Source: an uncultured Bacteriovoracaceae bacterium (GTDB taxonomy: Bacteria > Bdellovibrionota > Bacteriovoracia > Bacteriovoracales > Bacteriovoracaceae). Taken from it: a stretch of 64,000 bases of DNA. Shown here piece after piece: positions 41,353 through 52,703 of the stretch; position 1 is the stretch's first letter; the number at the start of each line of letters is the position of its first letter. A program made the translations under genes and the position numbers. The notes under the pieces were generated by a model that did no database searches, was not told the DNA's origin, and worked only from the letters and a program-made list of their open reading frames with translations. The DNA lies in contig CALHBF010000012.1 of assembly GCA_937931205.1 (NCBI GenBank), positions 1 through 64,000 of the forward strand, given 5' to 3'.

Positions 41353-42563
41353 TGGAACAAGAAAATTTTAAAAGAAAAGTTCGCTTTATTACTTACTTTG
41401 GTAGAGTCCTTCACTCGGTGGGATCTCCGGCCCACACTCTTGAAGCCACGATGCAGGAGTTGTGTCGAAGATTTGGGCTTAAGGGTGAGATCGTATCAAT
41501 TCCCACTGCTTTTTTTGCTTCATTCACCGATGGTGATCAAGAGATTACGAAGATTCATCGTGCTGAGCCTGTTGGTGTGAATCTTGGAAAGCTTTCTCAA
41601 GTAGATACAATTTCTCAAGAAGTGATTAGCGGGCAAGTTTCCTATGAAGATGGAATTGCCAAGCTTGAAAGAGTTTTTCAAGACAATCACTCTTATGGCA
41701 AGCGTATGCGGATTGCTTGCTTCCTTTTGTCGGCCATTGGGTTTCTTGTACTTTTTGGCGGAAATTGGGGTGACCTGTTAGCTGTTGCCTTGGTGGGAAT
41801 TCTGATGGGCCTGCTTTCTCTTTTTAGACCGCTTGGTGTGGTTGCTCAATTATATGAAGCGATCGTGGCCTTCGTGGCTTCTCTTGCCACTTATATCATG
41901 GCCAAGTTTGTTCCTAGTTTAAACGTACCGGTGATTATTTTATCAGGTCTGATTATTTTCATGCCTGGGCTTAATATCACTATTGCTATCTCTGAAATTG
42001 CTACCCATAACCTGACTTCTGGAACCAGCCGTTTAGTAGGCGGTATTATGGTGACTTTAAAACTGACCTTTGGAGTCTTCCTAGGCTCTAAGATGGCCAG
42101 TTGGTTTCATGTCGCTCCTATTGATTTAGATTTTGGGCCTATTCCTCCTTGGGTTATTGCTATTACCCTGCCTTTAACGGCATTAATGTCGACAGTAAAC
42201 TTTAAGGCCTTATGGAGTGACTGGAAATGGATCACTATGGCCGGTATTTTTGGTTACCTCTCATCGCGTTTAGGAACTCATTATTTGGGACCTGAATTGG
42301 GAATCTTTTTTGGAGGAGCTTGTGTCGGAGCTGGATCAAACCTTTTTGCTCGGATTCTTAATAAGCCTTCCAGTCTTTTTCATTTCCCAGGAATCATTTT
42401 GCTAGTTCCAGGATCAATTAGTTACCGCTCGATGAGCTTTCTTTTTGAGCAAGATGTGATGGGTGGATTAAATATGGCCTTTCTTGCGTTGTCTTTGGCG
42501 ATGAGTTTAGTGGTAGGAATTTTTGTGGGAAATATTTTTGTGAGACCAAGAAGTAGTCTTTAA
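41352..42563 (+). CDS. ThrE-family threonine/serine exporter-like protein
   Basis: 403 residues. A soluble N-terminal region (about 1-115, with SPAHTLEATMQELCRRFGL) is followed by about ten membrane spans, as in ThrE, where the N- and C-terminal halves (ThrE_1 and ThrE_2) are fused. Relatives export threonine, serine or small peptides using the proton gradient. Translational coupling to the lipoprotein gene is likely from the TAATG overlap. Confidence 0.85.
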   Translation: MEQENFKRKVRFITYFGRVLHSVGSPAHTLEATMQELCRRFGLKGEIVSIPTAFFASFTDGDQEITKIHRAEPVGVNLGKLSQVDTISQEVISGQVSYEDGIAKLERVFQDNHSYGKRMRIACFLLSAIGFLVLFGGNWGDLLAVALVGILMGLLSLFRPLGVVAQLYEAIVAFVASLATYIMAKFVPSLNVPVIILSGLIIFMPGLNITIAISEIATHNLTSGTSRLVGGIMVTLKLTFGVFLGSKMASWFHVAPIDLDFGPIPPWVIAITLPLTALMSTVNFKALWSDWKWITMAGIFGYLSSRLGTHYLGPELGIFFGGACVGAGSNLFARILNKPSSLFHFPGIILLVPGSISYRSMSFLFEQDVMGGLNMAFLALSLAMSLVVGIFVGNIFVRPRSSL

Positions 42564-49674: not shown

Positions 49675-50310
49675 ATGAGTCAACGTCGTGCATCCAATGG
49701 TCGCAGATGTAATAACTGTCAGGTGAATGAAACCTATTGTGTATGCCGGCATATCAAACCTTTTCAAATCAAGACCAATGTTTCCTTAATTGTTCATGTG
49801 AGAGAATTAAAACTCACTTCCAATACGGCCCAATTTGCCCGGAAGATGTTGCCTGATAATGCAGAGATCTTTGTGAGAGGAAGAATGAACGATGATTTCA
49901 TCGCTGATCCTGTGGTTAAGCGTGAGGGAAGACCGCTTTTTCTTTACCCTCATGAAGATGCTCATGAGCTTAATGATGAGTTTCGTGAAAAATTCCCTGG
50001 TCCATATCACTTAATTATTCCAGATGGAAACTGGAGTCAGGCACGTAAAGTGAGAGCTCGTGAGGAATCATTTAAGCAAATGATGGCGGTTAAGCTGCCG
50101 GCGGGAATTATTTCCGAGTACGGACTTCGAAAAGCAATTCATCCTGAATGGGTTTCAACTTATGAGGCGATGACTTGGGCCCTGCATGCACTAGAGGGCG
50201 GCGATACAAAAGAGCGCCTGATGGGCTTTTTTAGAGCTTGGGTTAATCAAACGCAAAAGCTTCGTAGGGGAGAATTCGACCTCCCCCTTGAAGTTGAGTG
50301 TGAACCCTAG
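49675..50310 (+). CDS. DTW-domain tRNA-uridine aminocarboxypropyltransferase-like (TapT)
   Basis: 211 residues. A zinc-type cysteine set sits at the start (CNNCQVNETYCVC). The hallmark motifs follow: IIPDGNWSQARK (the DTW-type signature, DGxWxxAxK) and VSTYEA. Family members transfer the aminocarboxypropyl group of SAM to tRNA uridine-47 (acp3U). The start lacks a clear ribosome site. It overlaps the sigma-factor gene by four bases, convergent. Confidence 0.88.
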   Translation: MSQRRASNGRRCNNCQVNETYCVCRHIKPFQIKTNVSLIVHVRELKLTSNTAQFARKMLPDNAEIFVRGRMNDDFIADPVVKREGRPLFLYPHEDAHELNDEFREKFPGPYHLIIPDGNWSQARKVRAREESFKQMMAVKLPAGIISEYGLRKAIHPEWVSTYEAMTWALHALEGGDTKERLMGFFRAWVNQTQKLRRGEFDLPLEVECEP

Positions 50311-51035
50311 GCAGCTAGGATATCGATTTTTTCTTTGTCACAGTGGTCTTTAATGAGAGTCAGGGCTTCAGCGTGTAGCTGGCAAATCCGACCCTCAGAA
50401 AGATTGACTACTTTTGAGATGTCATAAAAGTTCAAATCTTCATAATACTTCAACTGAATAATAATTCTCATCGTACGCGGAAGTTCATCAAGAACAACAC
50501 TCAGTGTTTTCTTCAAAGAGTATTCCTCGAATTCACTGATCGAATCTCTTAGAGAAAGAGTCTCTCCTTCAACATACTGTTTAATTGTTTCACCTGATTC
50601 GTATTGCTCCATACGAATCATATCCTTTGATTTAAAAGGCAGAACGTTTTCAATCTCCTTACTCGTAGGACTTCTTCCTAATTCGATAGTGAGGTTCTTC
50701 TTCGCACTGAGGTATTGCTTTTGTTTGTTCCTCTCACTACGGGTCATCCAGTCCTGCTTCCTTAGTTCGTCGACAATTTCTCCACGAATCCTAAACTCAG
50801 CGTAGGTTTTAAACTGATTTTTCTTATCTTTCTTATACTTATTGAGGGCATCGATTAATCCGATCACTCCCACCATCACTAGATCCTCAAAATCGAGAAC
50901 CTGATGGCATTGATAGTGATAGTGCTTGGCCCAGTATCTAATTGTGGGCATAAAATTTTTTATGATTTCCTGCCGACAAGTAAATTGCGGATTAAGTTTT
51001 GTATCCAAGATGACCCCCGTGTGAAGTGAGGTCAT
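50307..51035 (-). CDS. fliA: FliA/sigma-28-type RNA polymerase sigma factor
   Basis: 242 residues from the ATG at 51035; a GTG 18 bases earlier is also possible, and neither has a good ribosome site. Region 2 (about 30-95) reads DLVMVGVIGLIDALNKY and KTYAEFRIRGEIVDELRKQDWMTRS-like blocks, the FliA pattern. Region 4 (about 175-230) includes NLSEGRICQLHAEAL as the -35-binding helix. It directs late flagellar and chemotaxis genes. No other flagellar gene is in the window. Confidence 0.88.
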   Translation of the reverse strand: MTSLHTGVILDTKLNPQFTCRQEIIKNFMPTIRYWAKHYHYQCHQVLDFEDLVMVGVIGLIDALNKYKKDKKNQFKTYAEFRIRGEIVDELRKQDWMTRSERNKQKQYLSAKKNLTIELGRSPTSKEIENVLPFKSKDMIRMEQYESGETIKQYVEGETLSLRDSISEFEEYSLKKTLSVVLDELPRTMRIIIQLKYYEDLNFYDISKVVNLSEGRICQLHAEALTLIKDHCDKEKIDILAA

Positions 51036-51128
51036 TATGGCATACAAAAGCACTCAACATAAGTGCGCCAATAGTTTTAGCAGGTTAGGGTATAAGTGTC
51101 TTAAAACATGGCCAGTGGATTGCCTTGT

Positions 51129-51389
51129 CTAGTTGGCAACCATGTCAAATTCATACTCTTCTTCATAGGAAGATGCTTCGTTGGTTTCAAGCCAACCAAG
51201 GTATTCATCCAGCTCCATGATCTCATCGCGGAAAATCACAACACGCCAGTTGGCCTGCTCTTGATTAAGCGAGTGAGCATCATTTTCGATAAGTTGATTT
51301 TGCACAGAGCTTGCGAGATCACTGAAGTTCATCTCTTCTTCAAGTCTAAGAATCTTTTTACCTTTCATGATGTAGTAGTGAGGGTTCAT
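51129..51389 (-). CDS. Small acidic protein of unknown function
   Basis: 86 residues from the ATG at 51389 with AAGAAGG nine bases upstream; a longer frame begins at 51425 without a site. It is rich in Glu with several Tyr/Trp (NWRVVIFRDEIMELDEYLGWLE, EEEYEFDMV). No signal peptide or Cys. No family is recognised. It lies between fliA and the sigma-54-promoted region and points away from the latter. Confidence 0.6.
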   Translation of the reverse strand: MNPHYYIMKGKKILRLEEEMNFSDLASSVQNQLIENDAHSLNQEQANWRVVIFRDEIMELDEYLGWLETNEASSYEEEYEFDMVAN

Positions 51390-51525
51390 GGAAATTACCT
51401 TCTTGGTAAATGGTGGAGGAATCAATCATTGATTCCTTAATTAAATGGTTCCAAAAAAAAGATGAGTTCACAAGTTCTTTTGAAAAAAATAAAAATAAAA
51501 AACTATTCACTCAGGCTTCTTACTT

Positions 51526-51545
51526 AGTGACACCATCAGTGACAC
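51526..51545 (+). promoter_or_regulatory. Direct repeats, candidate enhancer site for a sigma-54 activator
   Basis: AGTGACAC occurs at 51526-51533 and 51538-51545, 12 bp apart. The pair is centred about 100 bp before the predicted sigma-54 start (near 51634), the usual place for upstream activator sites. Confidence 0.4.
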
Positions 51546-51606
51546 TACTTTTAGTTTCAAGTTGGCACCAATGAATACTCAAATAGGGGCAAAACACGTT
51601 TTGGAG

Positions 51607-51622
51607 TTGGCACGATTTTCGC
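51607..51622 (+). promoter_or_regulatory. Sigma-54 (RpoN) promoter
   Basis: TTGGCACGATTTTCGC has a perfect -24 element (TTGGCACG) and GC at -12 with exactly ten bases between GG and GC. Only TTGC is TCGC. Transcription would begin about 12 bases on, near 51634. Confidence 0.78.
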
Positions 51623-51633
51623 TCTATAGGTTT

Positions 51634-51934
51634 ACAAGCTTCTCCTCCTCAGGAGTTTTAAGAATCAGGATGATTTTTAAAATTGAGGGGTAGGAACTTA
51701 ACAAATTTTTAAACTTCTTCATGGAAGACAGGTGGGTTCAAGGATGAACCATTCTCCCTCCCTCAGTGTCAGGATGACTATGACGGGGCCGGTGTTAGGA
51801 TGATACTGGTATGGGTAACTAGTGGAAATGTGGAGTTTAAAAATTGGCATGGATTATGCCTATTAACAACCAGAGACGCTAAGGAATGGTGTCACAAATC
51901 AACCCCAAGGACGGACAAATGAAGAGGAGGATTT
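51634..51934 (+). ncRNA. Candidate CsrA-binding (CsrB/RsmZ-like) RNA or leader with many GGA hairpins
   Basis: This 300-base stretch has no frame but about 13 GGA motifs, four of them AGGATGA. Six lie in loops of small hairpins: AATC-AGGAT-GATT (51663), GGTTC-AAGGAT-GAACC (51735), GTC-AGGAT-GAC (51768), CCGGTGT-TAGGATG-ATACTGG (51789), GGCAT-GGATT-ATGCC (51846) and GACGC-TAAGGAATG-GTGTC (51875). GGA in a hairpin loop is exactly what CsrA/RsmA binds, and clusters of it define CsrB-type sponge RNAs. A sigma-54 promoter lies just upstream. No terminator is seen before the microprotein gene at 51935, so it could also be its long leader. The fliA neighbour fits control of motility. Confidence 0.55.
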
Positions 51935-52048
51935 ATGGAAATGATGTTTGTTCTTGCTGGATGTCTCGGAATGATGCTCACTAGCCTTGTCCTTCAACGA
52001 GTGTCCTATCGGCGCTCATATGCAGCCTCAAAAACAAGTACTAAGTAA
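51935..52048 (+). CDS. 37-residue membrane microprotein
   Basis: The start MEMMFVLAGCLGMMLTSLVL is one hydrophobic span; the rest (QRVSYRRSYAASKTSTK) is a basic tail that would stay in the cytoplasm. GAGGAGG lies five bases before the ATG. It ends eight bases inside the convergent M24 gene. It is the only coding frame downstream of the sigma-54 promoter and GGA-rich region. Confidence 0.55.
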   Translation: MEMMFVLAGCLGMMLTSLVLQRVSYRRSYAASKTSTK

Positions 52049-52703
52049 GAGGCTCATCAGTGAGAAGGTCTTCGAAAAAAGCACCAAATTTACGATCACG
52101 GTCCCAGAGATGGATTTCTAAAATCCAGGCATTAGGTACGATGGATTCAGAAACCTCTTTGAGACTTCCCTTGTAGTGGACTTGATGAGGGAAATCCCCA
52201 ATACGATGTCCATCCTGATCCATGTTTAAATCAAATCCATAATTTTGAGCGACAGTTTTAGCAAAGTCATAAAGTGCTTCGCCCGTCTTATGGGTCTTCA
52301 TCCAATAATCTTTCACTTCATCAAACACTTGTTTTTGAGCAAGGCAGATTTTCTCGTGTTCAGTATTATTTCCAATAAAAAACGTCTCACCAAAATCAGC
52401 TTCATGATCATTGATGACCGGCCCGATATCTATGAAGAAAATGTCATTTTCTTTTAAGATGTAGTCTTGCGATTTGTCTTTGAAGTTGAGCAAAGTATTA
52501 GGACCAAAACGAAGCTTGGCAGGGTGCCATTGTTTTTGAATATCATGTTTTAGGCAAATCCCTTTATAGATTTCATGAGCATGAGCTTCAGTCATTCCAG
52601 CTTTAATATAAGTCCTCAACTCATAAGCAATATCCTTAGCAAGGTTTCTTGCTTGGATAAGTTTAGTGAGATCAAATTTATTTCCGAAATTCTGAATGCT
52701 CAT
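52041..52703 (-). CDS. M24-family metallopeptidase-like (aminopeptidase P/methionine aminopeptidase fold)
   Basis: 220 residues, so only the catalytic pita-bread domain. Metal-ligand positions can be followed: FIDIGPV (Asp), EADFGETF (Asp), GHRIGDFPH (His), LEIHLWD (Glu) and FFEDLL (Glu). It cleaves or binds N-terminal residues of peptides. It is last in the operon scoA-scoB-proB-yajQ-yqeY-M24, with a 14-base gap upstream. Confidence 0.82.
   Translation of the reverse strand: MSIQNFGNKFDLTKLIQARNLAKDIAYELRTYIKAGMTEAHAHEIYKGICLKHDIQKQWHPAKLRFGPNTLLNFKDKSQDYILKENDIFFIDIGPVINDHEADFGETFFIGNNTEHEKICLAQKQVFDEVKDYWMKTHKTGEALYDFAKTVAQNYGFDLNMDQDGHRIGDFPHQVHYKGSLKEVSESIVPNAWILEIHLWDRDRKFGAFFEDLLTDEPLT

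Follow-up and report, generated by a model that had tools for sequence, protein, structure and literature searches.

In excerpts of the papers cited here, small RNAs (sRNAs) are described as the antagonists of CsrA in Gammaproteobacteria and the protein FliW as its antagonist elsewhere, and fliW is reported to be missing in Gammaproteobacteria and to anti-correlate with BarA-UvrY, responsible for the making of Csr sRNAs (PMC7652899). According to the same source, the CsrB repeat CAGGA(U/A/C)G lies in hairpin loops, RsmE binds ANGGAN loops, and E. coli CsrB contains 22 GGA motifs (PMC7652899). Erwinia csrB requires GacA and IHF, and the excerpt of that paper makes no mention of sigma-54 control of csrB (PMC5109040); for Geobacter, no CsrB-type sRNA is characterised according to the excerpt of PMC13407953. 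In Campylobacter jejuni, the flaA mRNA has been proposed as a CsrA ligand and as a dual-function mRNA in the CsrA-FliW network (PMC4894983). Bdellovibrio bacteriovorus, in whose attack phase FliA-type control is reported, has the abundant c-di-GMP riboswitch merRNA, a proposed RNA sponge that is reportedly not conserved beyond the Bdellovibrio lineage (PMC3627812). Here we analyzed a stretch of 64,000 nucleotides (nt) from an uncultured Bacteriovoracaceae bacterium (GCA_937931205.1, contig CALHBF010000012.1; hereafter the window), in which a sequence-only reading had proposed a CsrB/RsmZ-like RNA behind a sigma-54 promoter at positions 51607 to 51934 of the + strand. Pseudomonas and Azotobacter have CrcZ and CrcY, sRNAs with a sigma-54 link that tie up an RNA-binding regulator; their target is Hfq/Crc.

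Our analysis points, with reasonable though not high confidence, to a sigma-54 regulated CsrA-control module composed of a CsrA-titrating RNA and an mRNA that CsrA could repress and that encodes a tiny hydrophobic protein. Computation establishes the RNA family with its GGA loops, the promoters, the conserved open reading frame (ORF) and the genes csrA, fliW and rpoN. The relatives carry two kinds of sigma-54 unit, A and B, often in tandem. The sequence-only reading had assumed a single element, either a free RNA or the leader of the ORF at 51935; with two units, the former option applies to A and the latter to B. The features of unit A in the window are the following.

51524-51569, + strand: probable enhancer-binding-protein sites GTGACACCA, GTGACAC and TTGGCACC
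51607-51623, + strand: sigma-54 promoter of unit A, TTGGCACGATTTTCGCT, matching 10/11 consensus positions
51633-51843, + strand: unit A, a CsrB-like RNA found by covariance-model match, both ends predicted
51645-51655, + strand: hairpin CTCCTCAGGAG
51663-51675, + strand: hairpin with AGGATGA, aligning to H1 of the relatives
51735-51750, + strand: hairpin GGTTCAAGGATGAACC, equivalent to the terminal hairpin H5 of the relatives, here without a T-rich tail
51768-51778, + strand: hairpin GTCAGGATGAC, absent from the relatives examined
51792-51806, + strand: hairpin GTGTTAGGATGATAC, absent from the relatives examined

The strong sigma-54 promoter claimed for this locus was borne out. The element at 51607 follows TGGCAC-N5-TTGCW with GG and GC ten bases apart, the genome encodes RpoN (Sigma54_DBD, E=2.8e-63), and transcription would be expected to start at about 51633. 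The pattern TTGGCAYN6YGCW occurs at 24 sites genome-wide, as compared to 3 for a reversed-pattern control. Upstream of the A and B promoters, TGGCCC is present in 35/52 and GGCACC in 27/52 regions, with about 4 each in shuffles; these 52 promoters belong to related, non-independent units. Only consensus-fitting promoters were kept in this set, so that the conservation of GG and GC within it is by construction, whereas the upstream enrichment is not. The sites of the TGGCCC/GGCACC type are probably bound by an enhancer-binding protein.

From 51634 to 51934 there are 15 GGA motifs on the + strand, slightly more than the 13 or so counted in the sequence-only reading, and 4 on the - strand, which is indeed far poorer. 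The four copies of AGGATGA are confirmed (51667, 51741, 51771 and 51797). All six hairpins named there also exist, the one given at 51789 being that of 51792-51806 and the one at 51846 doubling as a second -24/-12-like element. The raw GGA number is not extreme, lying about 2 standard deviations above 200 dinucleotide-preserving shuffles (15 vs 10.6 +- 2.0, shuffle maximum 15; unit A alone 9 vs 6.9 +- 1.8, maximum 11). The number of GGA within hairpin loops in sampled folds, as compared to the same controls, was 5.98 vs 0.67 +- 0.56 (maximum 3.07) for the whole region and 3.99 vs 0.44 +- 0.51 (maximum 2.68) for unit A alone, with 0/200 shuffles as high in either case. The presence of several GGA in hairpin loops is shared with the class of CsrA-sequestering sRNAs. 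The fold is stable (z = -3.13; 0/100 shuffles equally stable), and a frame of 40 amino acids (aa) at 51800-51922 overlaps the GGA-rich region. The 301-nt stretch from 51693, with 16 GGA, ties with a + strand stretch near 2100 (16 GGA) as the richest in the 64 kb; a further GGA-rich stretch of this length lies near 42223 on the + strand (14 GGA).

Direct DNA similarity yielded fragments only, in 5/58 genomes at E<=0.01 including the window's own, and the loci of relatives were then retrieved around the gene for an M24 peptidase. A covariance model built from 19 relatives with the window excluded (R1; its E-values are rough) matches 51645-51759 with 28.6 bits (E=7.4e-6), the next best match in the window having 12.1 bits. 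In a search of the whole genome, which is 86% complete, the window RNA is the top match (E=3.6e-4; next E=2.0). In the relatives, unit A consists of the promoter followed by 138-162 aligned nt with the consensus ..CCGCCAGGATGGTAG..GTTTCAGGATGAAA..GCCTCAnGGAnnnGAGCGATGAGAGTCCAAGG..CCCATCCGGTTCAnGGAnGAACCACTTTTT. It is present in 23/26 genomes of the genus, counting the window's own and a partial copy at a contig end in G013, and was not found in G006, G009 and G022.

Thirty base pairs in 6 helices (hairpins H1 to H5) were tested over 26 distinct sequences of unit A. Three of these, L100-L102, belong to another genus of the family, and two more, L138 and L150, agree in coordinates and score with yet another one (G058). 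Pairing is retained in 86.3% of cells, and compensatory changes on both sides are found in 19/30 pairs. The covariation score is 0.300, as compared to 0.158 in shuffles (0/500 as high) and 0.08-0.15 when the structure was slid, a comparison in which the structure is favoured, as it was drawn from the same 26 sequences. The conservation of GGA loops in close relatives, on which the sequence-only reading had staked its proposal, was found: the loops of H1, H3 and H5 contain GGA in 26/26 sequences, and that of H2 does so in 12/26. Most rows of the underlying alignments (A5, A8) were gathered by a pattern containing the last hairpin, and one gathering also used GAGCRRYG; H5 and GAGC thus owe part of their invariance to selection, whereas the selection did not involve H1, H2, H4 or the GGA of H3. 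Stems that vary while GGA persists are what is expected for a CsrA ligand.

Searching 290 genomes of the phylum with R1 gave matches in 29 at E<=0.1. We accepted 24 as the same or a close RNA, namely 18 genomes of the genus, G058, G029, G226, G265 and G267, and G134, which has the form of a DksA leader. G034 and G277 contain distant two-hairpin RNAs with a sigma-54-like site. Matches in G140, G261 and G294 were rejected, as they appear coding by eye and a sigma-54 site is absent from their listing; extra weak matches in G002 (two), G014, G021 and G226 were dropped because their listing also has no such site. Any match at all is limited to 9/161 genera, so that most genera of the phylum are without one at this threshold. 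Among 40 loci found by pattern, 24 score at least 72.6 bits and 16 score at most 22 bits or have no match at E<=1. These loci are mostly assigned to Bacteriovoracaceae or Bacteriovorax stolpii, some to Bdellovibrio(nales), Halobacteriovorax or only Proteobacteria. Neither the window nor the loci of 7 relatives gave a match to any Rfam family (release 15) at its gathering score; the alignment and model of unit A define an RNA family that this release does not match. Two further genera of the family have short sigma-54-like units that carry two GGA hairpins (L106 at about 1538-1620 and L108 at about 1522-1600, read on the reverse strand) and precede a conserved gene whose product reads ..DWIFYLKL...

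Unit B comprises, in the window:

51844-51860, + strand: degenerate sigma-54 promoter TTGGCATGGATTATGCC, with 9/11 positions of the -24/-12 element; as RNA, a GGA-loop hairpin is possible
51846-51860, + strand: hairpin with GGA loop, coinciding with this promoter
51861-51934, + strand: leader with the hairpin below and GGAGG 5' of the ATG
51875-51893, + strand: hairpin in the leader
51935-52048, + strand: conserved ORF of 37 residues whose product has a single hydrophobic stretch and a basic tail, found by profile match

The ORF at 51935 is a genuine conserved gene. When its profile was built without the window, 51923-52045 was the sole match at E<=10 among 1796 six-frame segments (E=5.8e-15). 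The ORF is present in 24/26 genomes of the genus (profile, E<=2e-6; missing in G006 and G022), and its copies differ most at third codon positions. In the relatives, unit B runs from a promoter through a leader, about 75 nt long and with a single CTAGGATGG-type hairpin, and a ribosome-binding site to the ORF. A sigma-54 site lies 95-105 nt 5' of the ATG in 22/24 distinct ORFs, the exceptions being the window (327 nt) and L060 (223 nt); the degenerate promoter of the window stands at this place, 90 nt 5' of the ATG. A GGAG ribosome-binding site was read by eye in 22/24 unit B copies, and 6/8 predicted pairs of the leader show compensatory change. At least two tandem copies of unit B, each with its own sigma-54 promoter, occur in L048, L049, L050 and L056 of the same genus, a local expansion of the tiny-protein family.

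The csrA gene on which the proposal depended is present: the genome encodes one CsrA, adjoining FliW. This CsrA has L4 and R44, described as RNA-binding residues in an excerpt of PMC7652899, as well as N55, proposed to contact FliW in an excerpt of PMC13407953; a CsrA with its RNA-binding residues belongs to the picture of CsrA-sequestering sRNAs. In a survey of 26 of the 29 R1-positive genomes, CsrA and FliW were each found in 25/26, all 25 genomes with csrA also carrying fliW, and the sole miss for both is G013, which is 84% complete. Among the 24 sigma-54 sites of the window genome, the window RNA has the most GGA in loops (3.97 in 210 nt), followed by the leader of a DksA/TraR-type gene (1.64). 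This gene (P0002; L176:1501-2042, contig C13 near 231648) has a sigma-54 promoter, an upstream GGCACC-type site and a GGA-rich leader; its protein is over the Pfam cut-off and under the NCBIfam cut-offs. A counterpart in another genus (L105), 57% identical over 81 residues, also lies behind a GGA-rich leader. The DksA/TraR-type gene may thus belong to the regulon of the window RNA as well, and given its similar leader the switch may extend to a wider regulon.

The genes surrounding the two units in the window are as follows.

50307-51053, - strand: FliA/WhiG-type sigma factor, Sigma70_r2 and r4 over the cut-off
51129-51425, - strand: conserved 98-aa ORF, no Pfam match over the cut-off
52041-52703, - strand: M24 peptidase (PF00557, 63.1 bits)

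The nearby fliA of the sequence-only reading is a sigma-factor gene of the FliA/WhiG type, its protein scoring slightly below the TIGR02479 cut-off (176.2 vs 189.6 bits), and the suggested link of the RNA to motility follows from position only. Among 24 named loci, the 98-aa ORF lies at most about 600 nt 5' of the RNA in 22, the contig ending too early in the other two. The sigma-factor gene is found about 1.3-1.4 kb upstream in 18/24, farther away in L125 and beyond the contig in 5. The M24 gene is downstream in 14/24 and was not found in 10, two of which (L131 and L144) extend more than 4 kb to the right. Thus, the left side of the RNA is fixed and the right side is not.

How the module would work can be outlined as follows. 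An enhancer-binding protein would activate sigma-54 polymerase at 51607 and, in the relatives, also at the second promoter. The GGA hairpins of unit A would bind CsrA dimers and draw CsrA from its mRNA targets, as CsrB and RsmZ do. Unit B would be the mRNA of the 37-residue hydrophobic protein, which CsrA would be expected to repress, given the GGA hairpin and the GGA-bearing ribosome-binding site in its leader, until CsrA is drawn off by unit A or by a second antagonist, FliW. In the window, the two units look fused, that is, merged or merging into a single transcript. Unit A there retains the H1-like hairpin and the last hairpin, is without H4 and has gained two AGGATGA hairpins relative to the relatives. 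With its T-rich tail missing, the transcript may run on into the ORF and, considering also the degenerate second promoter and the two extra GGA hairpins, one transcript may be sponge and mRNA at once.

Several points weigh against the proposed module. The support is computational, and transcription, CsrA binding, titration and repression of the ORF are steps that we infer. The CsrB/RsmZ-like RNA postulated in the sequence-only reading is partly supported, namely by the covariation, the csrA gene, the conserved GGA loops and the equivalently placed promoters of relatives; membership in Rfam CsrB (RF00018) was rejected (14.3 bits vs a gathering score of 71, E=0.1). FliW already antagonises CsrA in such genomes, and the conserved GGA hairpins of unit A in the relatives number only three to four. 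The best window site of the unit B leader model, 51861-51937, is weak (15.6 bits, E=0.24). Since the T-rich tail of the relatives is absent from the window's unit A and a search for a + strand terminator in 51400-52200 found none, a free RNA is only putative for the window's form. This last point fits an alternative that we regard as unlikely, if worth keeping in mind, in which the 300 nt act only as 5' leader for the mRNA of the tiny protein, their GGA hairpins controlling that ORF in cis, with no titration in trans. In the window, no terminator separates unit A from the ORF and the second promoter is degenerate; the conserved ORF follows directly 3', and 10/19 relatives also have a related small ORF directly behind unit A. 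The other 9/19 have none, however, a count of ATG starts only that may overlook a few, and this speaks for a free RNA. A T-rich tail (at least 5 T in 9 nt) follows the last hairpin in 20/26 relatives, unit B has its own promoter in relatives, and the GGA hairpins exceed the needs of one ORF.

The strongly conserved H3-H4 core, unexplained by GGA binding alone, also speaks against the module and raises the question of another role, in which this core would sense a ligand or bind a different protein and the GGA loops would be secondary. In the relatives the core is near-invariant (GnCTCAnGGA..GAGCG..GAGAGTCCAAGG), albeit with GAGC and the last hairpin partly selected. Since the window form is without H4, yet retains and gains GGA hairpins, since GGA stays in the loop even where stems are altered and since Rfam gives no match, we hold such a role to be improbable. 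The peptide, about 30-37 residues long and with a single hydrophobic stretch, adjoins a structured RNA, which would suggest a type I toxin-antitoxin pair. However, the position is fixed beside the sigma factor gene, and both units are arranged in tandem on a single strand and share their type of GGA hairpin, and thus are no antisense partners, which makes this pair highly improbable.

Overall, the CsrA-control module can be extended to a broader proposal, which we put forward tentatively and rate at slightly below even chances: a new family of CsrA-sponge RNAs outside Gammaproteobacteria, transcribed from sigma-54 promoters, coexisting with FliW and paired with CsrA-repressed mRNAs for tiny membrane proteins, the whole forming a sigma-54/CsrA switch by which predatory bacteria may time their passage from swimming to growth. 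The tie between the unit A RNA and the predatory lifestyle is speculation. In the open-licence PMC literature, nothing was found that combines Bacteriovorax and CsrA, no title among those listed for Bdellovibrio and CsrA describes such an RNA, and for combinations of CsrB, sigma54, FliW and sRNA no title among the matches listed is on one. If the RNA does bind CsrA, antagonists of the sRNA and the FliW type would act in one cell, with control through sigma-54, and a post-transcriptional lifestyle switch in these bacteria would become testable.

When compared with the known systems, unit A resembles CsrB-type sRNAs in its many GGA in hairpin loops, the CAGGA(U/A/C)G-type repeat, the CsrA encoded in the genome and, in most relatives, the terminal hairpin with a T-rich tail. 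It differs in showing no family-level similarity, in having fewer GGA than E. coli CsrB, in coexisting with FliW and in being coupled to the mRNA of a tiny protein; whereas those sRNAs are under GacA/UvrY control, a sigma-54 promoter is found here (a GacA box was not searched for). With the C. jejuni flaA system it shares a FliW-bearing organism and an mRNA as proposed CsrA ligand, although there the ligand is a flagellin mRNA, with no antagonising sRNA, and here a dedicated structured RNA with a tiny ORF. The sigma-54 linkage and the proposed sequestration of an RNA-binding regulator are reminiscent of CrcZ/CrcY, from which the motifs differ. Finally, while merRNA is a c-di-GMP riboswitch, both are proposed sponge RNAs from the same phylum, merRNA in a predator and unit A in what is likely to be one.
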